47,092 nucleotides of DNA from Acidobacteriota bacterium. Its GTDB lineage: Bacteria; Acidobacteriota; Thermoanaerobaculia; Thermoanaerobaculales; Sulfomarinibacteraceae. Positions 2-41,846 of this stretch are shown one piece after another. The notes under the pieces are model-generated. The model made no database searches. It was not told where the DNA came from and saw only the letters and a list, made by a program, of their open reading frames with translations. The stretch spans positions 1 to 47,092 of the forward strand of contig WGCW01000077.1 of NCBI GenBank assembly GCA_015493585.1, in the 5' to 3' direction. The translations under genes were made by a program, and so were the position numbers. How positions within the stretch are numbered: the first letter of the stretch is position 1; each line of letters starts with the position of its first letter.

Positions 2-1087
2 AGCGGGCGGGTGTGGGTGGGCACCGTGGGAGGGGTGGCGGTCTTTGATCCCACCGAATATCAATCCGACTCGGTCTCCAAACGGCTCTGGATCGAGGCA
101 CACCTTCTTGGAGATACCGGTCACAAACCGTTCAAGCCGGGTATGCACCTCCCCTACGGCCGGAACTCCGTCGTTTTCCAGTTTGCGCTCCTAAGTTTTC
201 TCCATGGAAACGAATCCCGCTATCGGGTCCAGCGCGTTGGGGCAGACAGGGAGCCTTCGCCGTGGACCGCCGATGACACGATGGTCTACCGCGACCTCCC
301 GGCGGGCAACTATGTCTTCAAGATTTGGGGCAGGGATTATGCCGGAAACATCAGCGAGCCCCGCACGATCGCATTCACCGTGGATCCAGCGCCCTGGAAG
401 ACGTGGTGGTCGCTGCTCCTGCTGACGCTTCTGGCGGGCCTTGTCACATATGGATTGGTCAGACTCCGCTTTGCCACTCTGAGACGCAGGGAAAAGGACC
501 TGCAAAACTTGGTCAATACCCAGACCGCCGAGCTCGCCGCCACCAATGAAAAGCTACGGCAGCTTTCCTACAGCGATGCTTTGACCGGTGTCGCCAACCG
601 GCGCCGTTTCAATGAGGCTCTTACCTCGGAGTGGCGCCGCTCCAAGCGGAGCGGGGTACCATGCTCGCTCATCGTCGTTGATATTGATAACTTCAAGACG
701 CTCAACGACACGTTTGGGCACCAGGCTGGTGACTGGTATCTGGTTGCCGTTGCCAAGGCCCTCAAGGCCGCCTCGCCGCGCGCTGGCGACTTCGTTGCGC
801 GCATCGGTGGGGACGAGTTCGCCGTTCTGCTTCCCGACACCTCACTGGAGGGCGCAGTCAAGGTTGCCGAAGAGATCGCCCGGTCTGTTGCAGCGATCCA
901 CCCGCCTCAAACCGGTGGCCTGTATCCTGCTTCCGTGACCGTCAGCTGTGGCGTTGCATCAAACGACGTGCCGATGATGTCTGAGATGGATCTCCTCAAG
1001 CTCGCGGATCAACGCCTGTACAGGGCGAAAGACCAGGGGCGAAACAGGGTTGTTTTCCAGCCTGAGGGGAGCGATTCTCGCGGATGA
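2..1087 (+). CDS. Sensor diguanylate cyclase (Y_Y_Y + TM + GGDEF), 5' partial
   Basis: The open frame runs in from the left edge. The first visible residues (SGRVWVGTVGGVAVFDP) look like the last blade of a two-component-regulator beta-propeller. Counting from the GTG at position 11, a Y_Y_Y-type Ig-like domain spans about residues 48-125, one membrane helix about 131-150, a short coiled coil about 155-186, and a GGDEF domain about 187-350. The signature GGDEF is intact at 266-270. The inhibitory I-site RxxD (RAGD, 257-260) lies exactly five residues before it. It should make cyclic di-GMP from two GTP at the inner membrane with product feedback, driven by a periplasmic propeller sensor. The signal sensed is unknown. 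Confidence 0.9.
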   Translation, partial: SGRVWVGTVGGVAVFDPTEYQSDSVSKRLWIEAHLLGDTGHKPFKPGMHLPYGRNSVVFQFALLSFLHGNESRYRVQRVGADREPSPWTADDTMVYRDLPAGNYVFKIWGRDYAGNISEPRTIAFTVDPAPWKTWWSLLLLTLLAGLVTYGLVRLRFATLRRREKDLQNLVNTQTAELAATNEKLRQLSYSDALTGVANRRRFNEALTSEWRRSKRSGVPCSLIVVDIDNFKTLNDTFGHQAGDWYLVAVAKALKAASPRAGDFVARIGGDEFAVLLPDTSLEGAVKVAEEIARSVAAIHPPQTGGLYPASVTVSCGVASNDVPMMSEMDLLKLADQRLYRAKDQGRNRVVFQPEGSDSRG

Positions 1088-1364
1088 GATGTGCCACGAT
1101 CTTGATGCTCTGCTGCGTGCGGCGAGCGGAAGCATGCCTGGAGGTCTGCCGAGCATCGGTGCACGTGTCAAGAGCGCAAGAAAGTTGCACATCGCCGCTG
1201 AGCATCGCTCACCTGAGGTTCCAGCCCAACGCCATGTGCCCGCCGTACACATCAGGCCTTGGCTGGACACGCTCGCTGAAGAATACGCGCGCACCGGATG
1301 TTGTTTCCCTTCAAGGGCGAGACGGGTGTGGCAGTCCGCGTCAAACGCGGGAAAGGAGCACACG

Positions 1365-10647: not shown

Positions 10648-13600
10648 CTATTCCTCGTGATTCAGACGGTGGGCCAGCGCGACCCGAGCGAAGGCAACGC
10701 CCGCTCCCAGGAGCTCATCCCACGCATCGAGGGCTTGATTCCTTAGCCCGAAGTCTCCCTCCCGTTCCGCCTCTTCTACCAGGCGAGCGAGGAGCCCCGT
10801 CAGGTGGTGCGCCGCCTGCCAGCCGTAATCGTGCAGAGTCTCTGACACCGATTTAACGGCTGCGAGCAACACTCCGGCGATTGGCTGAAGCAGTGCCTGA
10901 CGATCGCAGGCCTCCACGATCGGCCCGATGTCGTGTTTGGCCTTCAGCGCTCGTGAGACGAGGTTGGTTACGAACATTTTCTGCTCAAGCAAGCGGGCAG
11001 CAGCGGGTTTGAAGAAGGTAGAGAGAACCGTTTCCACCGTCTGCCGGTCGCATTCACCGGCAAGCCAGACGGCAAGATCCATGACCCAGGGAACCGGATC
11101 GTCGCTAATCAGGAGCTCCCGTACTGCCCGCGCCATACCGCGGCGCACGTATTCGGAACGTTTGCTCACCGTCGCGATTTCCTGATCGCCGATGGCGTGC
11201 TCCCGGCGAAGCCACACCGCCAGCGACCCCCCTGTGCTTGCGACGTGCGCCCAGGACATATCCTCCGAAGAGACGTGCTCCGAGGACTGGTCTGTCATGG
11301 CGAGAAGCAGCTCGATGGCCTGTCGCTGCTCCACCCTGGTGGCCTCTTCTCTGCCCGTGGCCAGCTGGAACAGCGCCCCAGCGATCTCACGCTCGGCCGC
11401 CACCACCGGATCAGACGCCGCCGTGAGGAGCAGGCCGATGGCCCGTTGCCGATGGCTATCGAGGCACGCGGCGGCGATAGCCCCCGCCCCCGCGCAGCGG
11501 CCGGCGTCGCGATGGTTGATTAGCTGCTCTGCGATTTCCAAGGCCCACTCCCGCACATCGGGATGGTGATGGGCCAAAGCCGCGATGGCGTCCAGGGCGA
11601 TGCAACCAATCTCGTTGAGACGGTGAAACTCCAGCCCATGATTTCCAGAAACCCCAGACTGTACCTCGGCTTCGGCCATCGCGGCAAGGCGTTGCCGTGC
11701 CTTCTCAGGCCAAGGAAGCGCGGACCACAGCCTGATCGTGTGCCCGATCGTTCGTCCAAGCGCTGGCTCATCCAAGTACCCGGCCTGGAGCACGAGGGTG
11801 GTGATCTCCTTGTCTGTCAGCCGCTCCCATACCTCTCCCTCGGAAACACCGGCCGGAGGTTGCACGCGCCCCAAGGCGTCCAAGAGCGCCTCGCGAGGCT
11901 TCAGATAATCGTCGGGGCCAAGCTCGAGCGCGAGGGGCAGGTATTGTCTCGGGCTCCGTTCGGCGAGGTAGCGGAGCTGCTGCACCAAGGTCCAAAGGGA
12001 ATACTCGGTGACAACGTCCTTGCCCAGCTGCGTCGAGCTTTTGAGGGCGCTCGTGTGCCGCGGGAGCTTGGGATCGCGAAGACGCTTCAACCATTCGCTC
12101 GTCGTCCAAGAAGAGGCAACCTCGTCAGGAGTTGCGGGCTGAACGTAAAAGGCTCCGGAAACGACGGCCTCTGGCGGCGTCTCCCCGAACTTTCGCCGCA
12201 GCTCGGCGAGCTTCCGTCGGGAGCGGCCACCGAGCCGGCAGGCCGGCAACCAGGAAAGGAGCTTGAACGTTGTCCGCCCGATGCGTGAAGGAACATCCAT
12301 GGTGCCAAACTGTTGCTGCCAGGCGATCCGCTCCTCTTCGTCCTCACGGGTCCACGGGTCGCGGTAGCCGAGGATCCACTCCTCAAGCTCGCGGAACGCC
12401 TCTTCCGAAACGGCGGTCCCCACGGCCTCCATGAAGCGCCGGACGGGCGATGATGATCCGGCATGCCCGACACGGATCTGCGCCCACCTGGGGTCAGACA
12501 TGAACCATCGCAAGAGGTGGTCCGCAGCCTTCGTGGCGTGGGCCGGAAGCCGGGCGCCGATGGCGAGCAGGAGCCAGCCGTCGGCCTCCCTCAGCGGCGT
12601 GGGCATCTCCCGCAGCAGCTCGTCAAGCTGCTCTGGTCGTTCGCCCAGCTCGTATGCCAGTCCGGCGGCGAGGAGCTCGACGAGCTTGGGGAGGAAGCCG
12701 TCTTCGAGGCCACAAGGTCCGTCGCGAACGAAAAGGAGCCCCCCGCGCAGCTCGAGCCCGTGCCACCAGTTGCGCAGGCGGCTCCAAATCTCCATGCCCA
12801 ACGCGGCAGCCTCTGGGGGCAGCGCCTCTCCCGCGGGAAACTGAGCGCACCACACGGGCCCGTTACCGGTCAGTACGTCCGGATCGCCGTGGCTCAGCAG
12901 GACCTCCAGCAAACGCACGGCCCTCCCGGGGGCTCGCTGCAGGAGGGTCTCCCAGTCGAAGTATGGGTCCTTTTCCGTGATGCGGGCGAGATGCTCCAGG
13001 CGCATCTCGAAGAGCGCGCCGGTATCCGCACCGGGCGCCTGGAGGAAGATGCGTCCCGCGAGGTCGAGCGTTTCCGGGAAGCTCTCCTTCCAGCGCCGGA
13101 GTAGGGTTGCGACACCATCGCCCCACTGCGCGGAAACCGACGCCAGAAGGTCCAGGAGCTCTTCTCGTTCGCGCCCAGTGGCAGCCTTCTCCCACGAGCG
13201 GTCCAACCAGCCGCTTTCGCTTAAGGCCCGGACCCATTCGCGTTGTCCCCGAATGACCGTAGGAAGAATCTTCGTCAGCATGAGGGGATCGTCAAGCCAG
13301 CCTACCACGAGCCTAATGAGCTCGTCGCTCGGCTGTTCAACAGTCGCGAGTGCAATAAAAACGGCGTGCTTGAGAACCGGCCGTACCTCGTCGGAGGCGA
13401 TGAGGTCGCGAATTATTTCGACTCCAGGGGGACGTTCGAGAAGCAGCGGTACCACGAGCCGCAGCCGGCGCGCCTGGTGCAGGCTCTGGCTCTTCTTTGC
13501 ACCCAGCCGCCGGATCAACTCTTCCGCGCTCCCCACATCTGCCCATCCCAGGGCGATCCGGACATCGGCGAGGATCTGGTGGACTGGCCGGAGATGCTCG

Positions 13601-15168
13601 ACGCCGCCGCGCCTCTCGACGGTCAGCGCTCCCGCCCGGACGAGCGCCTCGATGGCCGGGCGGTCGCGAACACCGTCACGCCGCACGCTCATGACCCCGT
13701 CCTGTTCCATACCGTGCAGGAGCCCGTCCAAGGCCTCGGTGGCGGCCGCTGGCTCGATACCCGGGAGGCTGGCCGCCACGGCGTCCCACCAACGGTCGAC
13801 GACCGAGGTCAGGGTCCGGAGCCCGGTCAGCGTTCCCCCTCGCCGGTGGAGGTCGATGGCCAGGCGCAGCGCCAGTGGCCGGCGAAGGAGCGCTCGAAGC
13901 GGCGCCTCCAGGCCGGACAACGCGATGCCCTCATGCTTGAGAATGTCCTCCGTTTGCGCCTCGTCGAGGTCGTGGACGGGAACCTTCACCATCTCGTCGC
14001 CGAGAAGCGCTTCCAGTTGGGTGTCGAGCTTGGCCTCGGCGGTCCGGGCACCGATGACGATGCTGAGGCCGAGCTCCTTCCCTCGCCGGATCCACGTATG
14101 GCAACGCCGGAGGAGCTGCTGGGTCTTTTCGCCGGCAAGGAGAACCTGGTCGTACTGGTCGATGACGAGCACGGCGCGCTTGCCGGCGGCGTAGAGCCAG
14201 AACGCACCGATCGGATCCCTTTCAAGGCCGATCTCGTCATCCCCGATGTCCGGGGTGAGAGCCAGAACCGGAACGGCTGGGTCGTGTTCGCGGAGCGCGC
14301 GCACCGCCCCGGCAATGACCTCGCTCTTGCCGCACCCGGCCGGTCCGTGAACGAGCACCAATCGCGGCTCCCGCCCGGTGACGGCGTCGACCACCTGCTG
14401 CGTCTCGGCTTGGGAAATCAGTGAGAGCGGTCCTCGGGCGTCATCGACCCGTTTGAGGTACCCCGACGCCAGGGCGTCGAGCTGATCGTGGATACGAGGA
14501 TCCGCCGGGCGGGGAATGAGGGCGATGCCGGCGTCCCCGAGCCACTCCCGCACTTCGAGCTCCCTGAGCTCCCGTGTCAGTGATCGGCGCGCGAGGTCGC
14601 GCAACGTATCGCGAAGCCGGCCTGGCTCGGAGGAAAGAGCCATGGCAAGGCTGCGGACTCCTTCTTTGATTGCTGGTGCGCTCGTTACACGGAGCTCGAT
14701 ACGGAGGGCGAGCGCATGTGCGACTTCAGCCGGCCGGCCTTCGCTCTCGAGGTGCCATGCCGCGGACAGCACCTTGCGCGTGCCGTCGTCCAACGCTTCC
14801 CACCATTCTTTCGCCCGGTCCTGGACAGCGGCTTCCTCGACTAATCTGGCGAGCGCTGGACAACCGGCATCGGTCACGAACTGGAACCGGAGCGACGGAT
14901 CCGCCCCGAGTCGTGAGCAGACCGCTTCGAGCACACCCTTCCTCTGAAGCTCCCCGAGCGTCCACTGCCCGGTGCTCCTCGTCTTGCACTGGACGGCGAT
15001 GGGGTGTCCGGAACCGTCCGACAGCCGGCAGTCGATTCCCTCGCCGTCCTCATGTTTGATCTCCCAGGTCACGGACCGCAGCTCGCCGTTGAGCAGGCGG
15101 AGTAGCTGGAGGACGACGTACTCCTCCTCGTACCAGGAGCCCGGCTTCCCCGGATCGTGGCCGATCAT
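10648..15168 (-). CDS. Nuclease-STAND NTPase-helical repeat protein (putative anti-phage effector)
   Basis: ATG 15168 overlaps the stop of the upstream ATPase gene in an ATGA, so the two are translationally coupled; the product is 1506 aa. Residues 10-110 look like a PD-(D/E)xK nuclease of the DUF4297/Cap4 or Mrr type (Asp46 in GEGIDCRL, Gln60-Cys-Lys62 in IAVQCKTR, helix WYEEEYVVLQLLRLL before). Residues 265-480 are a P-loop NTPase with Walker A GPAGCGKS (275-282) and Walker B VLVIDQYD (D337, D340). The last 900-1000 residues are uniformly helical with Leu/Ala/Trp-rich repeats, HEAT- or TPR-like, and no enzymatic motif. The layout effector-STAND-sensor and the size match Avs-type antiviral NTPases. 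Function is inferred from architecture only. Confidence 0.8.
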   Translation of the reverse strand: MIGHDPGKPGSWYEEEYVVLQLLRLLNGELRSVTWEIKHEDGEGIDCRLSDGSGHPIAVQCKTRSTGQWTLGELQRKGVLEAVCSRLGADPSLRFQFVTDAGCPALARLVEEAAVQDRAKEWWEALDDGTRKVLSAAWHLESEGRPAEVAHALALRIELRVTSAPAIKEGVRSLAMALSSEPGRLRDTLRDLARRSLTRELRELEVREWLGDAGIALIPRPADPRIHDQLDALASGYLKRVDDARGPLSLISQAETQQVVDAVTGREPRLVLVHGPAGCGKSEVIAGAVRALREHDPAVPVLALTPDIGDDEIGLERDPIGAFWLYAAGKRAVLVIDQYDQVLLAGEKTQQLLRRCHTWIRRGKELGLSIVIGARTAEAKLDTQLEALLGDEMVKVPVHDLDEAQTEDILKHEGIALSGLEAPLRALLRRPLALRLAIDLHRRGGTLTGLRTLTSVVDRWWDAVAASLPGIEPAAATEALDGLLHGMEQDGVMSVRRDGVRDRPAIEALVRAGALTVERRGGVEHLRPVHQILADVRIALGWADVGSAEELIRRLGAKKSQSLHQARRLRLVVPLLLERPPGVEIIRDLIASDEVRPVLKHAVFIALATVEQPSDELIRLVVGWLDDPLMLTKILPTVIRGQREWVRALSESGWLDRSWEKAATGREREELLDLLASVSAQWGDGVATLLRRWKESFPETLDLAGRIFLQAPGADTGALFEMRLEHLARITEKDPYFDWETLLQRAPGRAVRLLEVLLSHGDPDVLTGNGPVWCAQFPAGEALPPEAAALGMEIWSRLRNWWHGLELRGGLLFVRDGPCGLEDGFLPKLVELLAAGLAYELGERPEQLDELLREMPTPLREADGWLLLAIGARLPAHATKAADHLLRWFMSDPRWAQIRVGHAGSSSPVRRFMEAVGTAVSEEAFRELEEWILGYRDPWTREDEEERIAWQQQFGTMDVPSRIGRTTFKLLSWLPACRLGGRSRRKLAELRRKFGETPPEAVVSGAFYVQPATPDEVASSWTTSEWLKRLRDPKLPRHTSALKSSTQLGKDVVTEYSLWTLVQQLRYLAERSPRQYLPLALELGPDDYLKPREALLDALGRVQPPAGVSEGEVWERLTDKEITTLVLQAGYLDEPALGRTIGHTIRLWSALPWPEKARQRLAAMAEAEVQSGVSGNHGLEFHRLNEIGCIALDAIAALAHHHPDVREWALEIAEQLINHRDAGRCAGAGAIAAACLDSHRQRAIGLLLTAASDPVVAAEREIAGALFQLATGREEATRVEQRQAIELLLAMTDQSSEHVSSEDMSWAHVASTGGSLAVWLRREHAIGDQEIATVSKRSEYVRRGMARAVRELLISDDPVPWVMDLAVWLAGECDRQTVETVLSTFFKPAAARLLEQKMFVTNLVSRALKAKHDIGPIVEACDRQALLQPIAGVLLAAVKSVSETLHDYGWQAAHHLTGLLARLVEEAEREGDFGLRNQALDAWDELLGAGVAFARVALAHRLNHEE

Positions 15169-16367
15169 GGCACGTTCTCCAGCGCCGCGGCGATGCCGTG
15201 CCACGGGACGAAACGGTCCTTGCCGCACGGCCGGACCTCATTGCCTCCGTAGACAATGAAACCGGGCGCGATCCGAACTTGCCCTTCGCCTCGTTTCTCG
15301 ACCAGCGAGCGGAACATCCGCACACCCTGGGCGTGGCGCGGATCCGGGGTGGCGGAACTCTTGATCTCGATGGGGAAGAGGTCGCGGCCAACCTCGATGA
15401 GGAGGTCCACCTCCTTGCCATCGCTGGACCGCCAGAACCAGCAATCCGGCTGGAGCCCAGCGTTGAGCCGCGCCTTGAGAACCTCCGCAAAACACCATGT
15501 CTCCACCAGCGCTCCCCACAGTGGATGGACGCGAAGCTGGTTGACGTCATGGATTTGCAGCAGGCGGCAGGCGAGGCCCGAATCGAGGAAGAAGAGCTTG
15601 GGCCGCTTGATAAGCCGTTTTCCGAAATTCCGGTGATGGGGCCGGAGCAGGCGGACAATGAAGCACTGTTCTAGGACTGAAAGCCAATGGCCAACGGTCT
15701 TGTTGTCCACACCCAGGTCCCGGGCCAGCGATGCTGCATGAAAGATTTGTCCGGTCCTGCTGGCACAGAGCCTGATGAAACGATCGAAGGCACTCCGGTT
15801 CCGTACCGGCAACACGTCGTAGATATCGCGGTTCATGAGCGCCGTGAGGTAGCTCTCGAGCCACCTGCCGGGATCCAGAGAACGGTCCTGGTCGAAGAGT
15901 GGGGGATACCCGCCCAGGAGCACCGCCTCCTCGATGGTCCGCGGCCGCGCTGGAGAGCTCAGGACCTCCTCATGGGAGAACGGCAGCAGCTCCAACATTG
16001 CAGCACGACCTGCAAGACTCTGACCGACAGAAGGTTGAAGGTCCATCTGACGAGACCCCGTCAATACCCAGAAGGTCCGTCCCGGCCGGTCATCGATCAG
16101 TACCTGGAGGTAGGACAGCGCCTCCGGTACATTTTGGATTTCATCGAGGATCGCTCCCGAAGGAAACCGGGCAAGAAAGCCCACCGGATCGTCCGCCAGC
16201 GCAACCCGCTCCAAGGGACTTTCCAAGTTGATGAATGGAAGCTCGGGAAAGGTTGATCTGGCAAGAGTCGTCTTCCCTGACTGCCGGGGCCCGGCGATAA
16301 AGATGGCATCATATCCCTGTGTGAGCGATGGCAGGAGGTCTGCAAGACGACGAGGAATATACTTCAT
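15165..16367 (-). CDS. AAA ATPase with C-terminal DUF4143
   Basis: The 400-residue protein has an AAA_14 domain with Walker A GPRQSGKT (26-33), Walker B AILDEIQ (Asp75, Glu76) and a sensor LTGSRQ (102-107). A winged-helix-like middle follows, then DUF4143 with PD-(D/E)xK-like residues (EVDLLIE, then PIEIKSS). Members of this large family are common and poorly understood; some are thought to act on nucleic acid. It is the first gene of the operon and its last codon overlaps the nuclease-STAND start by four bases. That tight coupling suggests a joint role, perhaps a regulator or second sensor in defence. ATG 16367 has almost no leader and no Shine-Dalgarno. Confidence 0.88.
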   Translation of the reverse strand: MKYIPRRLADLLPSLTQGYDAIFIAGPRQSGKTTLARSTFPELPFINLESPLERVALADDPVGFLARFPSGAILDEIQNVPEALSYLQVLIDDRPGRTFWVLTGSRQMDLQPSVGQSLAGRAAMLELLPFSHEEVLSSPARPRTIEEAVLLGGYPPLFDQDRSLDPGRWLESYLTALMNRDIYDVLPVRNRSAFDRFIRLCASRTGQIFHAASLARDLGVDNKTVGHWLSVLEQCFIVRLLRPHHRNFGKRLIKRPKLFFLDSGLACRLLQIHDVNQLRVHPLWGALVETWCFAEVLKARLNAGLQPDCWFWRSSDGKEVDLLIEVGRDLFPIEIKSSATPDPRHAQGVRMFRSLVEKRGEGQVRIAPGFIVYGGNEVRPCGKDRFVPWHGIAAALENVP

Positions 16368-33892: not shown

Positions 33893-34192
33893 TCAGTAGT
33901 GGTATCGTGCCTGGAGGAAATCGATCCGTCCCTCTCGCACCAGGTAGACAATTCTGTGCTCTTCCGTCAGGCGCCTCGACCACGTCCCGGCGAGCAGGTA
34001 CTTGAGCGGCTCGGGTTTGCCGATACCTGAAAACGGATCGCGCAGCACAGCCTTGACGATATCCAGCGCCCGAAGCGCCACCTTCCGGTTGGTTGCAACC
34101 CAGTATTTCAGGTCTTCCACGAACTCTGGCTGGAAGACAGCGGCACGCCGCCCCTCGCCGGTAGCGATCGCTCTACCTTTCTTCTTCGCCAA
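33893..34192 (-). CDS. YoeB/Txe-type toxin
   Basis: No ATG or GTG suits the family start. TTG 34192 follows GGGAG by seven bases and overlaps the antitoxin by 20 bases, giving 99 residues (YoeB has about 84). The family core is clear: VFQPEFVEDLKYWV, GKPEPLKYLLAGTWSRRLTE, EHRIVYLV and the terminal ARYHY, so the Glu/Arg of TEEHR and the His/Tyr of the C-terminus expected in the ribosome-dependent RNase site are present. It should cleave mRNA in the ribosomal A site when free of antitoxin. The rare start may keep toxin output low. Confidence 0.88.
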   Translation of the reverse strand: MAKKKGRAIATGEGRRAAVFQPEFVEDLKYWVATNRKVALRALDIVKAVLRDPFSGIGKPEPLKYLLAGTWSRRLTEEHRIVYLVREGRIDFLQARYHY

Positions 34193-34463
34193 GACCCAGC
34201 TCCCGCCGCAGCTTGGCGACATCCGAAGGTGGGAGCTCCTGATCGCGTGCACGTTGCAGCGCCCTCAGCAGGCGCTCCACGTTTTTCGGCGAACGCAAGA
34301 GGTGAGCCGTCTCCAGCAGGCTCTCGAGCTCCTCGACGGACACGAGCGCCACGTCCGCCTTGTTCCGGCGCTTGATGATTACCGGTTCTCTCGAGGAGAC
34401 GGCCTCGTCGCAGAGCGTTGCAAGCTGTGCCCGCGCATTCGTGTAGGTTGTCATCGTCGCCAT
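34173..34463 (-). CDS. Phd/YefM-type antitoxin
   Basis: ATG 34463 follows TTGGAGGATGCATCG. The 96-residue protein has a typical YefM N-terminus (TTYTNARAQLATLCDEAVSS, EPVIIKRRNKADVALVSVEE), which forms the DNA-binding dimer, and a charged C-terminal arm (residues 55-96) expected to wrap the toxin. It is longer than many YefM proteins because of that arm. It is first in the operon and its stop lies inside the toxin gene. Confidence 0.88.
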   Translation of the reverse strand: MATMTTYTNARAQLATLCDEAVSSREPVIIKRRNKADVALVSVEELESLLETAHLLRSPKNVERLLRALQRARDQELPPSDVAKLRRELGLGEEER

Positions 34464-34534: not shown

Positions 34535-34704
34535 TCAGTCAAACAGCCAGGTCACCTTGACGAAGCCGATGGTCTGCCGCTCGGAGGAGAACGGCGTCCA
34601 CGTCAGGTCCCGGTCGAGATCCCTCGAGTGGGTCAGGCCGACGTAGATTCTGGTAAACGCGTTCTTGCGCCAGGTGAAGAGCAGGTTGATGTAATCGTAG
34701 GGGT
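34535..34704 (-). pseudogene. Duplicated 3' end of the DUF5916 barrel gene
   Basis: These 170 bases match 37795-37964 at 167 positions with no gaps. They encode the last 55 or so residues of the DUF5916 protein (ending GFVKVTWLFD and stop), but nothing precedes them in frame: identity ends at 34704, seven bases before the stop codon of the exporter gene. It cannot be expressed on its own. It lies between the toxin-antitoxin promoter and the exporter. Confidence 0.9.
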
Positions 34705-34711
34705 GCTTGTC

Positions 34712-36436
34712 TCATGCTAGCGCCCGAGCTTCCCCAGATTCTCGGTCACCATCGTGCTCGCCTTGACTGCCGTTGCCGGCCGGTACGTCGAGCTCGACCA
34801 CGAGATCCATTCCGGGCAGCGTCTCGCGGCGGTGGGTCATCCAGATCATGATGGGCCGCCAGGGAAGCGCTCCCAGGTTGCGCATGAGCTTCTGCTGCGT
34901 GACGGCGTCCAACGCCGAGGTCGCCTCGTCGAAAATGATAAGGTCGGGTTTCCCGTACAGGGCACGCGCGATGGCGATCCGCTGCTTTTCGCCGCCGGAG
35001 AGCATGGCACCGAGCTCCTGAATCGGCGTTTGCAAGTGCTTTGGGAAACGGCCGACGGTTTCTTCCAGAATCGTGATATGCATCAGTTGCCGTATCCACT
35101 CGAAACCGGGGTCGGAGTCGAAGAACGTGATATTGTCGAGGATTGTTCCAGAGAGGAGTGGAGGTTCCTGGGGTACAAACCCGGTCCGCATCCTGATCGA
35201 GCTCAGGTCGAAGCTCGTGTAGTCCACACCGTTGATCCGAATGCTGCCCGAGGTTGGCACGTCGAAACCCAAAAGCAGCCGTGCAAGCGTTGTTTTCCCA
35301 GCGCCCGTCTCACCGGTGACCGCGATCCGGTCACCACGCACGCAACGGAACGAAACTGGGAGCAGCTCGCCCCTCTCACCATACGCGAAGGCCACGTCCT
35401 CGACGTCCAACGTCCGGATTTCGTCGAGTCCGGCAACACCGAATCGCCCGGCCTCGGCCGGATGATCGATCACCTCGAAGATCCGCTCAGCCGCGGCGAG
35501 CGCTGAATGAATATCGATGTTCGTGCTAACGACGTCCCGCACCGGGTTGTAGAGGTACCCGATGCAGGTGTTGAAGGCGATGAAGCCGCCGAGCGTGAAC
35601 TGGCCGAGGATGATCTGCCGAATCCCATACCAGAGCACGAAGAGCGGCAGCAGAACGCCGGTTAGCCCGATGGCGATGCTGGCGACCACGTCGTACAGCT
35701 CGAGTTTCCTGTCCGACGCAAGGGCCGAGCGAAGCGAACCGCCGTAGCGGACGTGGGCGATCGCCTCCCTGGCAAACCCCTTCAAGGTCCCCGCGACGCC
35801 GAGCAGCTCGACAAGCACGCCGCGAAACGTGGCCCACGCCTCTTGGCGTTCGCGGCTGTACTCGTTCATTCGCTTTGAGAACACATGAAATGTGATGATG
35901 AAGAGTGGCAGCGACAGGATCGACACGATGGCGAGCTGAACGTTAAGGTAAAAGAGCAGGCCCACACCAACCATAAACGTCAGCCCGTCCATGCCGAGAT
36001 TGAGTACCGTTTCCACGAAGAGATGGCCCGCAGCATCGACGTCGTTGTCCGCCCGCGACTCCAGATAGCCGCGTTGGTGCTCCTCGAAGAAGCGCAGCGG
36101 CGCGGCCATGATCGAGCGGAAGAGCGACGTCCGGATGTCGCGCTCGACGTTGATCCGGTAATCGACCAGCAGCTTCCGGTACAGGTAGGAGCTCGCGTTA
36201 TTCAGCAGGACGATTCCAACCAGGGCGAGCGCAAGCAGGTTCAGCAGGCGAAGGTCCCCCTTTGGGACGATGACGTCGATCAGGTACTTCGTCAACAACG
36301 GCGCGGGGAGCTGGAGGATGGCCGAGAAGAGCATCAGGAGCCCGGCCGCAAGCCCGCGTGGCCAGTACGGCGCGAGAAATTGCAGGAACCTCCGGTAGGT
36401 CCTCCACGCGTGCCTGTAGTACCCCGTTCCCGTCAC
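34712..36436 (-). CDS. ABC exporter of the putative RiPP locus
   Basis: GTG 36436 overlaps the maturase stop in GTGA. The 574-residue half-transporter has six N-terminal membrane helices (about residues 25-310), then an ATPase with Walker A GETGAGKT (375-382), signature LSGGEKQR (479-486), Walker B LIIFDEATSALD (Asp503, Glu504) and H-loop His535. The first residues lead straight into helix 1, so there is no C39 leader peptidase domain; leader removal, if any, must come from another protease. It probably exports the modified peptides. The C-terminus (after 550) is a charged tail without homology that I recognise. Confidence 0.88.
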   Translation of the reverse strand: MTGTGYYRHAWRTYRRFLQFLAPYWPRGLAAGLLMLFSAILQLPAPLLTKYLIDVIVPKGDLRLLNLLALALVGIVLLNNASSYLYRKLLVDYRINVERDIRTSLFRSIMAAPLRFFEEHQRGYLESRADNDVDAAGHLFVETVLNLGMDGLTFMVGVGLLFYLNVQLAIVSILSLPLFIITFHVFSKRMNEYSRERQEAWATFRGVLVELLGVAGTLKGFAREAIAHVRYGGSLRSALASDRKLELYDVVASIAIGLTGVLLPLFVLWYGIRQIILGQFTLGGFIAFNTCIGYLYNPVRDVVSTNIDIHSALAAAERIFEVIDHPAEAGRFGVAGLDEIRTLDVEDVAFAYGERGELLPVSFRCVRGDRIAVTGETGAGKTTLARLLLGFDVPTSGSIRINGVDYTSFDLSSIRMRTGFVPQEPPLLSGTILDNITFFDSDPGFEWIRQLMHITILEETVGRFPKHLQTPIQELGAMLSGGEKQRIAIARALYGKPDLIIFDEATSALDAVTQQKLMRNLGALPWRPIMIWMTHRRETLPGMDLVVELDVPAGNGSQGEHDGDRESGEARALA

Positions 36437-37782
36437 GCGCTTTCCTTCTCAGCGTCTTCAACCTTCTGCGAGCCGCCGCTTCCCTCGTTGAGCTTGTACG
36501 TGTAATACAGCTCGAGCTGCCGGCCGAGGTAGTACTTCCACCGCGCGCAGTCCTTCTCCGGCATCTGGCCGAGCTTGGCCTTGATCCGGACATCGACGCA
36601 GCCACCCATGCAAATTGGCAGGTACCGGCACTCGAGGCACTCGGGATCGTTCTCGAAGCTCTCGGAGAGGTAGCGAATATAGAGCGGGCCAAAATCGATC
36701 GGCTCGGCCACGTTGCCCACAACCTGGTCAGGATTCCCGAGATGGTTCCAGCACTTGTAGAGCTCTCCCCCAGGGCCAACGACGTAGGCGCTCGTCGAGG
36801 TCGCACCGCAACCCGAGGAAATGTCGGGGTAGGCCGGCTCGACAACCCCCAGCCCGACGAGCTGCTCCTGGAGCTCATACTCCCGGTCCCAGAAATCTCC
36901 CTGCAGTAAACACTCCTCCTCGGAGCAACGACAGGAAGCGGAGAACTTGCGCACATAGCCGAAATACACGCTGAAAATTCCCGGGTCGAACCACGGATAC
37001 GACGAAAGCTGTTCGTAAAAGTGCCGCGCGTCCTCGACGTTCTCTCGGTCGACGTTGACGCGCAGCGCCACGGGCAGGATGCCCGCCGACTCCTCGAGTC
37101 GAGAAACGATGGTGTCGAAGCTCCCGGCGCCGCTGCGGTACGGCCGCCTCTGATTGTGCACCTCGCGTGGGCCGTCGAGCGTCACTTGGGCACTGGTTAC
37201 CTGCAAAGCCTTCAGCTTTTCCGCCACCGTCCGGCTGAGCAGCGTCCCGTTGGTGACGATGTCGGCCGTGTAACCGATCTTCTTGTCCTCGCACAGCGCG
37301 ATGAGCTTCGAGCTCAGCCGTTCGATGACCTCCAGGCACAGAAGCGGCTCGCCGCCGTACCAGGTCACGGAGACGCCGCGCATGCCGGCGTCGATTGCCT
37401 GGCGTGCGAAATCAACGACCTTGTCCTGAATCTCCTCGCTCATGACGCCCTTGGTCGGATTTTCAAAACAGTACTTGCACGCGAGATTGCAGTTGATCGT
37501 CGGGGCGATGGTGAGGCCGAGCCAGTTGCCGCCGTACTGCTGCACATGGCGGCGGATTCTGAGCACGGCGAGCTCGTCAAGTTCGTCGGGAATCACGAAG
37601 CCGCCCCGCTCGAGCTCGGCCAGCGTCTCGGAGTCCACCCGCGGCTCGCCGCCGGGTTCGAGGTTTTCCACCGCCGCCCTGATTTCCGCATCGACCACGG
37701 CGAGGCCGTTGCGCAGGGCGTTGTAGGCCAGGATCGAGCCGTCCTCCCCTTCAAAAAAGAAGTTATAGCGCGATGGTTTCAT
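36433..37782 (-). CDS. Radical SAM/SPASM peptide maturase
   Basis: ATG 37782 follows GGGAGGAATCA, 12 bases after the barrel gene's stop. The 449-residue enzyme has an N-terminal 85-residue region (YNFFFEGEDGSILAYNALRN; ELERGGFVIPDELDEL) typical of RiPP maturases and possibly a leader-binding fold. The radical SAM cluster motif is Cys98-x3-Cys102-x2-Cys105 (INCNLACKYCF), with GGE at 143-145. A SPASM-type C-terminus provides Cys325, 344, 382, 385, 391, 395 and 412 for auxiliary clusters, with three more Cys at 284, 286 and 291. Such enzymes install thioether or C-C links on ribosomal peptides. Two Cys peptides upstream are likely substrates. Confidence 0.9.
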   Translation of the reverse strand: MKPSRYNFFFEGEDGSILAYNALRNGLAVVDAEIRAAVENLEPGGEPRVDSETLAELERGGFVIPDELDELAVLRIRRHVQQYGGNWLGLTIAPTINCNLACKYCFENPTKGVMSEEIQDKVVDFARQAIDAGMRGVSVTWYGGEPLLCLEVIERLSSKLIALCEDKKIGYTADIVTNGTLLSRTVAEKLKALQVTSAQVTLDGPREVHNQRRPYRSGAGSFDTIVSRLEESAGILPVALRVNVDRENVEDARHFYEQLSSYPWFDPGIFSVYFGYVRKFSASCRCSEEECLLQGDFWDREYELQEQLVGLGVVEPAYPDISSGCGATSTSAYVVGPGGELYKCWNHLGNPDQVVGNVAEPIDFGPLYIRYLSESFENDPECLECRYLPICMGGCVDVRIKAKLGQMPEKDCARWKYYLGRQLELYYTYKLNEGSGGSQKVEDAEKESA

Positions 37783-37794
37783 TGATTCCTCCCT

Positions 37795-37964
37795 TCAGTC
37801 AAACAGCCAGGTCACCTTGACGAAGCCGATGGTCTGCCGCTCGGAGGAAAACGGCGTCCACGTCAGGTCCCGGTCGAGATCCCTCGAGTGCGTCAGGCCG
37901 ACGTAGATTCTGGTAAACGCGTTCCTGCGCCAGGTGAAGAGCAGGTTGATGTAATCGTAGGGGT
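37795..37964. repeat. Parent copy of the 170-base duplication
   Basis: The 3' end of the DUF5916 gene, repeated in direct orientation at 34535-34704 with three substitutions and no indel. The two copies bracket the maturase and exporter genes (about 3.1 kb). Confidence 0.92.
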
Positions 37965-40056
37965 TGTCGTAGCCGTAGTCGTAGAGCGACGCGCGGTCAT
38001 GGATGAAGAAGATCTTGAAGTTCGTGTGATCGTTGAAGACGTAGCGGACGACAGCTTCGTAGGAGCGCTGGGCGCGGTCGAGGGCGCCTGTATCCCGCTC
38101 CCGGAAGGTAAAGTCCGACGCGTTGAGCCGGATGGAGAACGGTCCCCAGCTCGAGTTCGCTCCCCAGGATACGGTCTTCTGGTCGACGACCCGGGGCGCC
38201 GAGCCGTAGAGGATCGAGTGACCGGTCGAGTAACTCACATACGGCTGAAACTTCGGGTGCTCCGACCACCCCACAGTCGCGTTGAGGGTATGGGTCGGAT
38301 AGATCACGCCGTCGAATTCCTCGTGGTCCTTTTGGTAGTACGCATTGACATTGAACTGATGCTCGAGCGTGACGCCGGCAAACGCGTAGGGAACCTGGTT
38401 GATCAGCACCGACCGGTAGTTGTAACGAAGTTGATAACCCACCTGGGCGGTGAAGCCCTTGACCAGCGGCTTGGACGTTTTGGGCTGGTACTCGAAGTTT
38501 TGGGAGACCTGGTAGCTCCGGAAGTCAACGCGCTCGAGGAATCCCGCATCGGTGCGGAAGTCCGGCGACAGCGCTTCGTACGACAGATACGTTTCGAAGT
38601 ACTGGCTCCACTTGTAGTCGAGGTCGAGCGATGCGCCGTTGCCGGTCTTGGTATCACCATGCGCCCGGGTCTGGGAGACGACGCCCTGGTAGGTGACGGT
38701 GAGCTTCTTCACGCGCTGCACGCCATCAATTGAGACGACGCGGTTGAAGCCGGAGCCGAAGTCCCGCTCGGTGACCATGGCGCCAATGAACGAGCCCTTC
38801 GGCTTCGTGTCCCACGTCGCCCGGAGGATGTGCCACCACGTGGTCCGCGCCCGCCCTTCCAGGCCGAAGCGCTCCGGCGGCACGTCCTGCTCGTTGGCCG
38901 AAATGCCGTACAGCCCGAGGCGCTTGCCCTTGGTCGAAAACTTCAGGCCCAGCTCCGGCTGGACGATGTTGCGGGTGTCGAGGAGATCGATCGGCGTCTT
39001 GAACGACTCCATGCCGTCCATGAAGAAGGGCCTTTTTTCGGGGAAAAACACCGGGTAACGGTTGTTGATCCGCTGGTAGGTGTCGTCGGCCTCGACCTCG
39101 GAGAAATCGGGATGGATCGTTGCCTTGACGCTGGTGTTGGAGGACGGAATCCACTCGCCGGTGATGCCGAACGTGCCCTGGGTCGAGCCCGTGGAGACCG
39201 CCGGATCGCTGCCCTCGCGATCCTTCGTGTCGATCCGTGAGACCACCCAGCTCGGAATCACCCGCCAGTGCTTCTGCGCGTGCGGCGGAGGCAGGTGCGT
39301 CAGAAGGATGCGGGCGTCGCCGTCCAACGGGTTGTTCGAGTTCCTGTTGAGGGGAAGCATCGAGTCCGCCTCGAAGAACTTCCGGGGAATAAACCGGGTG
39401 ATCGAAAAGAGCCACGTCCCGGCCCCATCCTGCGCGGCGTAGTTGATGCTGGCAAACGGAATCCGGATCTCGACCGTCCACCCTTTGGTATCGATGGTGC
39501 TGCCATGATCGAAAATCAGGTCGAAATCGCTGTTGAAATCGCCGCTCGCGAGGTCGACGGTGCCGTCGGTGACGTCGTTCATGGGCGAGACAGCAACCAT
39601 ATATTCCTGTTTGCCCGTACCGAAAGAATCAAGGTAAATCTCGACATGCTCGTCCAACCCTTGATCCCGGCGGTAGCGCGTCCGCCGGATCTGCTCCGGA
39701 TGCGGATCGAAGCAGCGCACGCCGACGATCAGCGCATCCTTGGTCGTGAACAGGTACAGCACCGTCCTGCGTGACGGCGGCGTGTTATCACCCGGGTCGG
39801 TTTGCACGAATCTATCCCAGCGGAACGCCTTCGCGTACTGCGGATCATCAAGCCTGCCGTCGATCTTCACCGGCCCCGGCAGGTAGGGGATATTCCAGGT
39901 CGGTAGCTTCCCGGCAGCCCGGCTGCCCGTTGGGACAAAGACGGCCGTGACGATGAGGAGCACCATGGTCAGACGGTCCGCCGCCGGGGAGTGGCCGCAG
40001 TGCCAAGAATGTCGCGGCGACCGGCCCGAAATCTGTCTCATCCACATCTCATCCAC
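37795..40056 (-). CDS. CBM9-like/DUF5916 outer-membrane barrel protein
   Basis: The frame opens at GTG 40056; ATG 40041 or ATG 39966 (MVLLIVTAVFVPTGSRAAG) are alternatives and none has a clear ribosome site. A signal peptide precedes a CBM9-like domain of about 200 residues (PGPVKIDGRLDDPQYAKAF; LYLFTTKDALIVGVRCFDP). The remaining 480 residues are DUF5916, alternating strands with aromatic girdle residues (KRPFFMDGMESF, YETYLSYEALSPDFR) ending VKVTWLFD, consistent with an outer-membrane beta-barrel. It lies between the two peptide genes and the maturase, so it may serve as outer-membrane exit or receptor for the product. That role is inference. Confidence 0.8.
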   Translation of the reverse strand: MDEMWMRQISGRSPRHSWHCGHSPAADRLTMVLLIVTAVFVPTGSRAAGKLPTWNIPYLPGPVKIDGRLDDPQYAKAFRWDRFVQTDPGDNTPPSRRTVLYLFTTKDALIVGVRCFDPHPEQIRRTRYRRDQGLDEHVEIYLDSFGTGKQEYMVAVSPMNDVTDGTVDLASGDFNSDFDLIFDHGSTIDTKGWTVEIRIPFASINYAAQDGAGTWLFSITRFIPRKFFEADSMLPLNRNSNNPLDGDARILLTHLPPPHAQKHWRVIPSWVVSRIDTKDREGSDPAVSTGSTQGTFGITGEWIPSSNTSVKATIHPDFSEVEADDTYQRINNRYPVFFPEKRPFFMDGMESFKTPIDLLDTRNIVQPELGLKFSTKGKRLGLYGISANEQDVPPERFGLEGRARTTWWHILRATWDTKPKGSFIGAMVTERDFGSGFNRVVSIDGVQRVKKLTVTYQGVVSQTRAHGDTKTGNGASLDLDYKWSQYFETYLSYEALSPDFRTDAGFLERVDFRSYQVSQNFEYQPKTSKPLVKGFTAQVGYQLRYNYRSVLINQVPYAFAGVTLEHQFNVNAYYQKDHEEFDGVIYPTHTLNATVGWSEHPKFQPYVSYSTGHSILYGSAPRVVDQKTVSWGANSSWGPFSIRLNASDFTFRERDTGALDRAQRSYEAVVRYVFNDHTNFKIFFIHDRASLYDYGYDNPYDYINLLFTWRRNAFTRIYVGLTHSRDLDRDLTWTPFSSERQTIGFVKVTWLFD

Positions 40057-40152
40057 CGGGCCATCGCGGGGAGCTCTCCCATTGCGTGGTCTCCGCGGCC
40101 ACGGCCCGCTTGGGCGCTCAGCATGGTCATCATCGTCGTCCTTTCTTGCGGC

Positions 40153-40341
40153 TCATCGCGGTGATCCGCCAGAGGGAGCCGGCGTTGGGGTTGGCGTTGG
40201 AGTCGGCCCTTTCGTCGGCGTCTTCTTCTTCGGTCTCACCAACGTTGCGCCCGCGTCACACGTGCATAAGTTTGAGCAATGAGACGTCGTGAGAGTCCGG
40301 CCTTCGAGCAGCGAGACAAGCGGATCTTTCAGCCATAACAT
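40153..40341 (-). CDS. Putative RiPP precursor peptide B, 62 aa
   Basis: ATG 40341 follows GGAGGTGATTC, among the strongest ribosome sites in the window. The peptide starts MLWLKDPLVSLLEG, has a Cys core HCSNLCTC (Cys22, 26, 28), then GATL (31-34), a basic run RPKKK, and a tail PTPTPTPTPAP ending SGGSPR. It shares residues at identical positions with peptide A: Trp3, Leu4, Asp6, Pro7, Leu11, Gly14, Gly31, Thr33, Leu34, Lys39, Lys40, Pro46 and the Pro-Thr tail. No signal peptide is present. It lies 96 bases before the barrel gene. Identity as precursor rests on context and paralogy, not on a known family. Confidence 0.75.
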   Translation of the reverse strand: MLWLKDPLVSLLEGRTLTTSHCSNLCTCDAGATLVRPKKKTPTKGPTPTPTPTPAPSGGSPR

Positions 40342-40582
40342 GAATCACCTCCAGTACGAAATCTCTCAGGCGCGCGTCGCCCTTACGGGGGCCCGACCCC
40401 GCAGCCAGGTACATTCCTCGGGGGTTCATGGCCGACCGTAAGACGTCAATTTCACCCCCTTCGACGCACGGCGTCTCGTCGCAGCGCGCACCTCCATTCC
40501 TGAGACCGAGCGTGTCCAATAAACAGCTCAGCTCACCGGGCACGCGCTTGAGAGGCTTCCGTGACCACCCTGTCGCCCCGAT

Positions 40583-40765
40583 TTATTTCTTGGGCGCCGG
40601 TGTGGGCGACGGAGTGGGGGTCGGCGTTGGGCGCTTGTGTTTGCCCTTCTTGTTTTTCAGAGTCAGCGTGTGCCCCTGCCCAACGCACTGACACTGCTTC
40701 TTCACGATCATACATGAATCGCCCCCGGCAGCCAGGTCCGAAACAGGATCACATAACCACTGCAT
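40583..40765 (-). CDS. Putative RiPP precursor peptide A, 60 aa
   Basis: The frame extends upstream to 40798, but ATG 40765 is chosen: AGAAGAGGTTGCC precedes it and the leader then aligns with peptide B. The peptide reads MQWLCDPVSDLAAGGD, a Cys core with Cys18, Cys25 and Cys27 (CQC), GHTLTL, a long basic stretch (KNKKGKHKR), and a tail PTPTPTPSPTPAPKK. A fourth Cys (Cys5) lies in the leader. Both peptides share a CxC pair at almost the same position and the same module order, so they are paralogues. It is the first gene of the putative operon, 241 bases before peptide B. Confidence 0.75.
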   Translation of the reverse strand: MQWLCDPVSDLAAGGDSCMIVKKQCQCVGQGHTLTLKNKKGKHKRPTPTPTPSPTPAPKK

Positions 40766-40810
40766 TGGCAACCTCTTCTCTGTCACCGGATGAACCAACC
40801 AACCTATCTA

Positions 40811-40832
40811 CGGGTTGACGCTTCTCAACCCG
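40811..40832 (-). repeat. Leader hairpin upstream of peptide A
   Basis: CGGGTTGA (40811-40818) and TCAACCCG (40825-40832) pair perfectly around a 6-base loop, about 45 bases before the peptide A start. It could be a leader structure of the peptide transcript or part of the decayed insertion sequence. No T-run follows. Confidence 0.45.
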
Positions 40833-40859
40833 CAGATACGAGAGTTCGATGATGTATGG

Positions 40860-40916
40860 CTATCGAGATACCACAGCTTTTAACGAGATGACTTGGCTAC
40901 GATCTCTTTCGCTCAT
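40860..40916 (-). pseudogene. Possible remnant of a transposase N-terminus, 18 codons
   Basis: ATG 40916 follows GGGAGCCAAC and opens MSERDRSQVISLKAVVSR before a TAG at 40860-40862. The pattern resembles the start of transposases of the ISNCY type, where a helix-turn-helix opens with a run such as RLxVIxxVV. It lies just inside what looks like the insertion-sequence left end (40985-41103). Homology over so few residues is weak and the frame after the stop is not transposase-like. Confidence 0.35.
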
Positions 40917-40984
40917 GTTGGCTCCCTTCACGTTTAAGGATTTATCTGGCCAGACGTTTATATTATGCAGCAGACCTTAGCTCG

Positions 40985-41103
40985 TGACAGGGGGTCAAAA
41001 TGTCTGATCATTGGCCGGACGGCGAGCTGCCGAAAAGCTGTGAATCCATTGGACATTCTCACACATTGCACGGAGGCGGGGGGGGTAATTTTGTCTGATC
41101 AGC
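40985..41103. mobile_element. Decayed insertion-sequence end (two 21-base repeats)
   Basis: GGGGGT-CAAAAT-GTCTGATCA (40990-41010) and GGGGGT-AATTTT-GTCTGATCA (41081-41101) are direct repeats with 17 of 21 bases equal, 91 bases apart. Short G-run plus TGTC repeats at an element end, followed inward by an AT-rich promoter-like stretch (TAATATAA) and a small ORF, is the layout of an IS left end. No right end or full transposase is visible. Confidence 0.5.
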
Positions 41104-41752
41104 GGAACGCGGAGGGTGACACGCCGAAGATCTCGTGAAAGACCCGCCGGAAGTAATGCACGTCCGAGAAACCAACGAGGCGTGCCGCTTCAGCCACGGT
41201 GCATCCGGCCGAAGGATCGGCAAGCATGACGAGAGTCCGGCGCAACCGCTCGGCCAGGATCATCTGGTGCGGCGTGGCGCCTCCCTCCTCGTGAAGCTTC
41301 GTGGTGAGGTGCGCCCGGCTCAGGCCGGCCTCCCGGGCGAGCCCGGAAACGGTCAGCTCCCGCAACTGGTCGAGGGGCAACGTGCGGAGCAGCGCCCGAA
41401 CGCTCGTCGCCAAGGGCTCGGGCCCGGCCGGCTCCCCCGCGCGGCAGATGGTCTCGGCAAGCAGGTTCCGCACTTCGTCTACCGGCTCACCGGCGCCACC
41501 TTGCGCGGCGCACTGTGTCTGGAGCGCACCGTACACCTCGAGGATCCTGCTCACCCCATGACCGGAGGTGATCGCAATCGCATACCGGGCCACGCCCAGC
41601 AAGAAGGGAGCCACCTCCCCATCGGCACGATGGCTGCACACGGTGGCGGCAACGTCCAGCGCACGCTCCCATGCGCGACCCTCCCTCGCCCCCCCGCACG
41701 TGCAGAGGTACTCCGCGAGCAAGGCCTCAATTTGATTCTCCGTGATCATCAT
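41099..41752 (-). CDS. AraC-family transcription regulator
   Basis: The start is ATG 41752 (MMITENQI), or GTG 41773; neither has a strong ribosome site. The 217-residue protein has an uncharacterised helical N-terminal half and a C-terminal AraC domain with two helix-turn-helices: LTVSGLAREAGLSRAHLTTK and TVAEAARLVGFSDVHYFRRV, then FHEIFGVSPSAFR. The stop TGA comes immediately after that motif and is part of the insertion-sequence repeat (TGATCAGAC), so the natural tail may have been cut by a few residues. It reads toward the peptide locus on the same strand and might regulate it; this is unproven. Confidence 0.8.
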   Translation of the reverse strand: MMITENQIEALLAEYLCTCGGAREGRAWERALDVAATVCSHRADGEVAPFLLGVARYAIAITSGHGVSRILEVYGALQTQCAAQGGAGEPVDEVRNLLAETICRAGEPAGPEPLATSVRALLRTLPLDQLRELTVSGLAREAGLSRAHLTTKLHEEGGATPHQMILAERLRRTLVMLADPSAGCTVAEAARLVGFSDVHYFRRVFHEIFGVSPSAFR

Positions 41753-41846
41753 GACCCCCGGGCAGTGAGACACCGGCGAACAACGCGCTGCTTCAAAAAG
41801 AGTCTACCAAATCGAAAGCTTCGCGAAGAACCGCTGGCCGTGCGCG

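Follow-up and report, generated by a model that had tools for sequence, protein, structure and literature searches.

A probable Clo7bot-type RiPP operon of a tryptophan-leader branch, with an adjoining DUF5916 barrel gene, in an Acidobacteriota bacterium

Clo7bot-type peptides have been described in the form of sequence models, TIGR04333 for the precursors and TIGR04334 for the maturase, and no paper naming Clo7bot, geopeptide or the TIGR accessions was found in the literature searched. A Clo7bot system combines tandem precursors, each with a short N-terminal leader of the form M-x-aromatic-[ILV]-x-x-P and a Cys-rich remainder, with an RRE-rSAM-SPASM maturase. In the SCIFF ranthipeptide systems (CteA/CteB and Tte1186), the leader is bound as a beta-strand by the RRE of CteB (PMC8326336), and both CteB and Tte1186 form gamma-thioethers with Thr (PMC10352776). 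DUF5916 (PF19313) proteins, in which a CBM9-like domain precedes a large outer-membrane beta-barrel, had no mention in the literature searched.

Here we describe a locus of an Acidobacteriota bacterium that shares these features of Clo7bot systems and that is very probably a Clo7bot-type RiPP operon of a branch with a Trp leader. The whole stretch of DNA analyzed, 47,092 nucleotides in length, is referred to as the window. The Trp-leader branch was repeatedly tied to DUF5916, and a gene for an outer-membrane pore of its own would be unusual in a Clo7bot-type cluster. The locus offers a compact five-gene set for studying the chemistry of a presumably cross-linked peptide and its exit from a two-membrane cell.

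Operon layout and precursor peptides

The genes are arranged on the minus strand in the order pepA, pepB, barrel, maturase and exporter, with a gene for an AraC-type regulator upstream on the same strand (Table 1). A first-pass annotation had described five minus-strand ORFs with a 12-base gap and a GTGA overlap, and this description agreed with the coordinates and sequence. The 12 bases (37794-37783) separating the barrel stop from the maturase start contain AGGGAGG, the GTGA is shared by the maturase stop and the exporter start, and a GGAGGTG ribosome site precedes the ATG of pepB. The exporter had been described as peptidase-less, and Pfam detected ABC_membrane and ABC_tran alone, with no C39 peptidase domain; homologues of this exporter adjoin the closest maturases in relatives. 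The operon contains no protease gene and no TolC or fusion-protein partner.

Table 1. Coordinates of the operon genes and associated elements in the window
Feature	Coordinates	Strand	Composition or basis	Translation
pepA, precursor peptide 1	40583..40765	minus	60 aa, Cys 5, 18, 25, 27	MQWLCDPVSDLAAGGDSCMIVKKQCQCVGQGHTLTLKNKKGKHKRPTPTPTPSPTPAPKK
pepB, precursor peptide 2	40153..40341	minus	62 aa, Cys 22, 26, 28	MLWLKDPLVSLLEGRTLTTSHCSNLCTCDAGATLVRPKKKTPTKGPTPTPTPTPAPSGGSPR
CBM9-like periplasmic domain and outer-membrane beta-barrel (DUF5916 family)	37795..40056	minus	Pfam, AlphaFold2 model, VIA-align	
Radical SAM/SPASM RiPP maturase, predicted N-terminal RRE-like domain	36433..37782	minus	NCBIfam, Cys motifs, fold	
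Peptidase-less ABC exporter, fused permease/ATPase	34712..36436	minus	Pfam domains	
AraC-type regulator	41099..41773	minus	HTH_18/HTH_AraC (Pfam)	
14-bp hairpin	40806..40839	minus	Inverted repeat, fold z -3.6 vs shuffles	
170-base copy of barrel gene 3' end	34535..34704	minus	98% direct repeat of 37795-37964	

The position of the AraC-type regulator makes it the likely controller of the operon; a search of three genomes (G000, G007 and G372) at E 1e-15 detected no homologue in G007, which belongs to the same genus, or in G372, of the same order. The hairpin lies between the regulator and pepA, has no second copy of its stretch in the genome and matched no known RNA element in Rfam; it could be an operator or an RNA element. 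A very short ORF at 40860-40931 (MSERDRSQVISLKAVVSR from an inner ATG), which has a good ribosome site and lies upstream of pepA, is a possible leader peptide.

The pepA product consists of a Trp leader, a Cys region and a basic tail rich in Pro and Thr; our guess is that this type of tail, found in both peptides, acts as a spacer or attachment tail. A search of the genome itself identified the two precursors as paralogues of each other (43% identity, E 1.7e-5), with part of the identity coming from a common PTPTP tail. Direct searches of other genomes with pepB gave weak matches, largely to the Pro/Thr tail, and hence precursors had to be located by their position beside maturases. Relatives of the maturase were drawn from 396 genomes of the phylum and from genome contigs. 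The small ORFs adjacent to these maturases opened with M-x-aromatic-[ILVM]-x-x-P (in full, M-x-[WFY]-[ILVM]-x-x-P), and a Cys-rich segment with several Cys residues came next. Across 95 maturase loci, 37 such ORFs lay on the same strand as the maturase and no more than 3.5 kb from it, against 2 in the remainder of the sequence. This corresponds to a density about 71-fold that of the rest of the same loci, a ratio which is descriptive and no blind test since the motif was first noticed in part of those 95 loci. At least one motif ORF was present at 17 of the loci. An alignment of 22 Trp-leader precursors demonstrated that invariant or nearly invariant positions were limited to three Cys residues and the Trp and Pro of the leader. 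A further Trp-leader Cys peptide (MFWIHDPISYLL...) was observed at a contig edge of assembly G229 (L052, 13786-14160), beside the end of an ABC exporter; no close maturase was found alongside it in that assembly.

Maturase relationships and predicted chemistry

Pfam and NCBIfam searches confirmed the Radical_SAM and SPASM domains of the window maturase, with the SPASM domain scoring above its cut-off. In an alignment with 23 relatives, the three Cys residues of the CxxxCxxC motif at 98-105 (C98, C102 and C105) were invariant, as were C325, C344, C382, C385, C391 and C395 of the SPASM domain, while C412 was nearly so. The best NCBIfam match was the Clo7bot maturase model TIGR04334 (290 bits; cut-off, 600), and comparable full-length scores were obtained with TIGR04463 (275 bits), CefB (Cys-every-fifth; 246 bits) and the geopeptide maturase model (213 bits), yet none of these exceeded its cut-off. 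Scores with non-RiPP SPASM models were 85 bits for the anaerobic sulfatase maturase and 79 bits for the quinohemoprotein maturase. The proposal of a RiPP locus in the first-pass annotation was therefore upheld, both by the scores of 246 to 290 bits with RiPP maturase models, which argue against a non-RiPP SPASM family, and by the precursors beside related maturases, as relatives that keep the maturase also keep matching small ORFs. A single-protein search of viral contigs detected no relative, and an alignment search of them returned distant SPASM enzymes alone.

A quick tree of the maturases, constructed with no bootstraps, placed the window maturase in a clade of seven (SH-aLRT, 96), together with those of G372, G024 (two loci), G075, G392 and L062, an Aminicenantes contig whose presence in the clade suggests an Acidobacteriota origin for the window. 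Precursors with a Trp leader (W[ILV]xxP...CxC) were present at all seven. The Trp leader was also observed outside the clade, at L046 (RNVWLIMP) and L071 (MKWILES).

An AlphaFold2 model of the maturase (pLDDT, 90.7) was compared with known structures, and Foldseek ranked CteB first and TigE fourth. VIA-align superposed 389 residues of the model on CteB (Z 27.5; rmsd, 4.1; model residues 4-428) and 389 on TigE (Z 23.9; rmsd, 3.5; model residues 1-431), while the match to a sulfatase maturase (Z 28.4) was limited to model residues 86-433. As CteB and TigE align from the N terminus of the maturase, the N-terminal 85 residues match the RRE region of CteB. The model thus suggests an N-terminal, RRE-like region for leader binding. 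The maturase also has two predicted sites for auxiliary clusters. The full-length maturase fold, the N-terminal RRE and the SPASM Cys set are shared with the SCIFF ranthipeptide systems. In contrast, SCIFF peptides have six Cys residues in about 45 residues, whereas the window peptides have three or four, and the window maturase scored 91 bits with TIGR03974, for which the cut-off is 425.

By analogy with these enzymes, Cys thioether cross-links are slightly favored as the chemistry of the maturase. A change of another kind (a carbon-carbon link, epimerization or, as in the TigE family, insertion of a methylene group), with the Cys residues serving for disulfides or metal binding, is a less probable but serious alternative. 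Besides CteB, the fold also resembles TigE and the sulfatase maturase, and no conserved acceptor residue was seen beside the Cys residues of the 22 Trp-leader precursors. However, beyond the Trp and Pro of the leader, Cys residues were the sole near-invariant residues of the precursors, and this near-invariance points to Cys as the modified residue. We propose that the AraC-type regulator turns on the operon and that the two paralogous precursors are produced, whereupon the short N-terminal leader (MxWLxDP) would dock on the RRE-like domain and the maturase would cross-link the Cys-rich middle, most likely as Cys thioethers.

The DUF5916 barrel and its distribution

The protein encoded before the maturase had been annotated as a DUF5916 barrel, and a structural model supported a CBM9 domain and an outer-membrane barrel. 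The Pfam score was 21.9 bits, just below the cut-off of 22.6, while the homologue in G372 scored 29.4 bits and was above it. The window protein is a probable but diverged member of this family and differs from the family at large in being linked in an operon to a RiPP maturase. A signal-peptide-like segment is present before residue 50, with some uncertainty as to the GTG start. In the AlphaFold2 model (pLDDT, 75.5), residues 52-256 were CBM9-like (VIA-align Z 17.7; 174 residues; rmsd, 3.0) and 22 to 24 strands followed residue 264. These strands matched MtrB (VIA-align Z 17.4; 400 residues; rmsd, 4.6), and the barrel half also matched many receptors and porins. Pfam found no TonB plug in the barrel, and model residues 319-349 were of low confidence.

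The first-pass annotation had suggested looking for a recurrent set of peptide, DUF5916, rSAM and ABC genes, and such a set was found in two gene orders. G372 has the same order as the window (peptides-barrel-rSAM-ABC) with four peptides, while in G024 and G075 the order is peptides-rSAM-ABC-barrel, with the G075 barrel running off the end of its contig. An HMM constructed for this analysis detected a barrel beside four of the seven Trp-clade maturases and none of 93 others (Fisher p 9e-6, a value that ignores relatedness). Since these genomes contain only 1 to 7 DUF5916 matches each at E 1e-5, adjacency of barrel and maturase is unlikely to have arisen by chance. No barrel was found nearby at the other three clade maturases, and solitary barrels exist, as in the complete genome G143, which has no close maturase. 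A role in export is thus reasonable at most.

We tentatively consider the barrel to be an outer-membrane exit channel, a reading that falls short of even odds. The peptidase-less ABC protein would carry the product across the inner membrane, the CBM9-barrel would act at the outer membrane, either as exit channel or as receptor, and removal of the leader would require a protease encoded elsewhere. A broader proposal is a two-membrane version of Clo7bot in which a radical-SAM cross-linked peptide leaves through a dedicated DUF5916 CBM9-barrel in the outer membrane and not by the usual route of membrane fusion protein and TolC. This proposal is speculative and rather unlikely; if true, it would assign a function to DUF5916.

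Only a little less probable than an exit channel is a receptor or uptake pore, in which the CBM9 domain binds ligand and through which the peptide is retaken as a metallophore or signal, or a barrel that provides self-protection. Cys-rich peptides with a CxC could bind metal, and the barrel half resembles TonB-dependent receptors and porins as well as MtrB. The occurrence of solitary barrels is also in keeping with a receptor, as is the persistence of the barrel where the maturase is lost or truncated. In G007 the barrel is kept (87% identity) while the maturase is reduced to about 20 codons and the exporter is lost, and in G285 a fragment of the maturase comes after the barrel. Set against uptake are the lack of a plug domain detectable by Pfam and the position of the barrel, directly before the maturase within the operon in two genomes.

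Of 149 genomes of the taxonomic class, three had a maturase match at E 1e-60, namely the window's own genome, G372 (52%) and G484 (36%). Loss of the pathway may be connected to a repeat that the first-pass annotation did not mention, at the edge of its interval. The final 170 bases of the barrel recur there, after the exporter, such that the two copies flank the maturase and exporter genes. Recombination between them would delete both genes and leave the barrel whole. The two copies differ at three sites, and at two of these the downstream copy agrees with G007. This agreement indicated that the downstream copy has its own history, and an assembly duplication was rejected as the source of the repeat. 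In the G007 locus (L048, G007:C177, 905-2326), the barrel and the remnant of the maturase are followed by a short element with inverted repeats, which is related to window positions 1069-1214, and by a second DUF5916 barrel.

Class assignment relative to Clo7bot

The first-pass annotation had regarded the peptides as an unassigned family. This was accurate insofar as NCBIfam peptide models gave no match to either window peptide, but the leader motif and the maturase tree place the peptides beside Clo7bot. A locus of an uncultured Clostridia bacterium (L063), with about 10 tandem peptides of the form MKYIVKP..., was utilized as a positive control. Its maturase scored 772 bits with TIGR04334 (cut-off, 600), and its first peptide scored 40.2 bits with TIGR04333 (cut-off, 31). 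TIGR04333 did not match pepA or pepB, and the best of the 22 Trp-leader peptides reached E 0.22. Trp-clade maturases scored 255 to 320 bits with TIGR04334 and TIGR04463, under both cut-offs. The next larger group in the tree, combining the Trp clade and Clo7bot-like rows, had a support of 82, and a comparison of Trp-leader and Clo7bot-like peptide profiles aligned 11 leader columns with a probability of 50%.

Several differences separated the two groups. The leader aromatic residue is Trp in the window and Phe or Tyr in the Clo7bot control; Clo7bot peptides have a dense Cys ladder, whereas those of the Trp branch have three to five Cys residues with a CxC; and the Trp branch has a long tail, basic or rich in Pro and Thr, and an outer-membrane barrel in its gene set. 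The window maturase scored less than half of the TIGR04334 cut-off and fell in a separate clade. A supported Trp-leader clade that adjoins Clo7bot without passing its models indicated an unnamed sister branch of the Clo7bot class, and with high confidence we regard the locus as a Clo7bot-type RiPP operon.

It is improbable that the locus is a formal Clo7bot system as defined by TIGR04333 and TIGR04334. TIGR04334 was the best NCBIfam match of the maturase, and the leader has the position and residues seen in Clo7bot peptides. Formal membership was nevertheless rejected on the score of 290 bits against a cut-off of 600 and a true Clo7bot maturase at 772, the absence of a TIGR04333 match, and the separate clades. 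FlmA/OhkA were also rejected as relatives, having another precursor type with a DD(I/V)LF motif. Finally, the GC-rich DNA here contains many ORFs of 60 aa, but the clustering of the motif (37 versus 2), the paralogy of pepA and pepB, the conservation of precursors at seven clade loci and the ribosome site of pepB make it very improbable that the small ORFs arose by chance and that the maturase is an orphan or a non-peptide SPASM enzyme.

Two further observations were made in the window. A 1,526-aa ORF on the minus strand (10648-15228) had no Pfam match at E 1e-5, and a PhdYefM antitoxin and YoeB toxin gene pair (33893-34463) immediately follows the operon in the same orientation.
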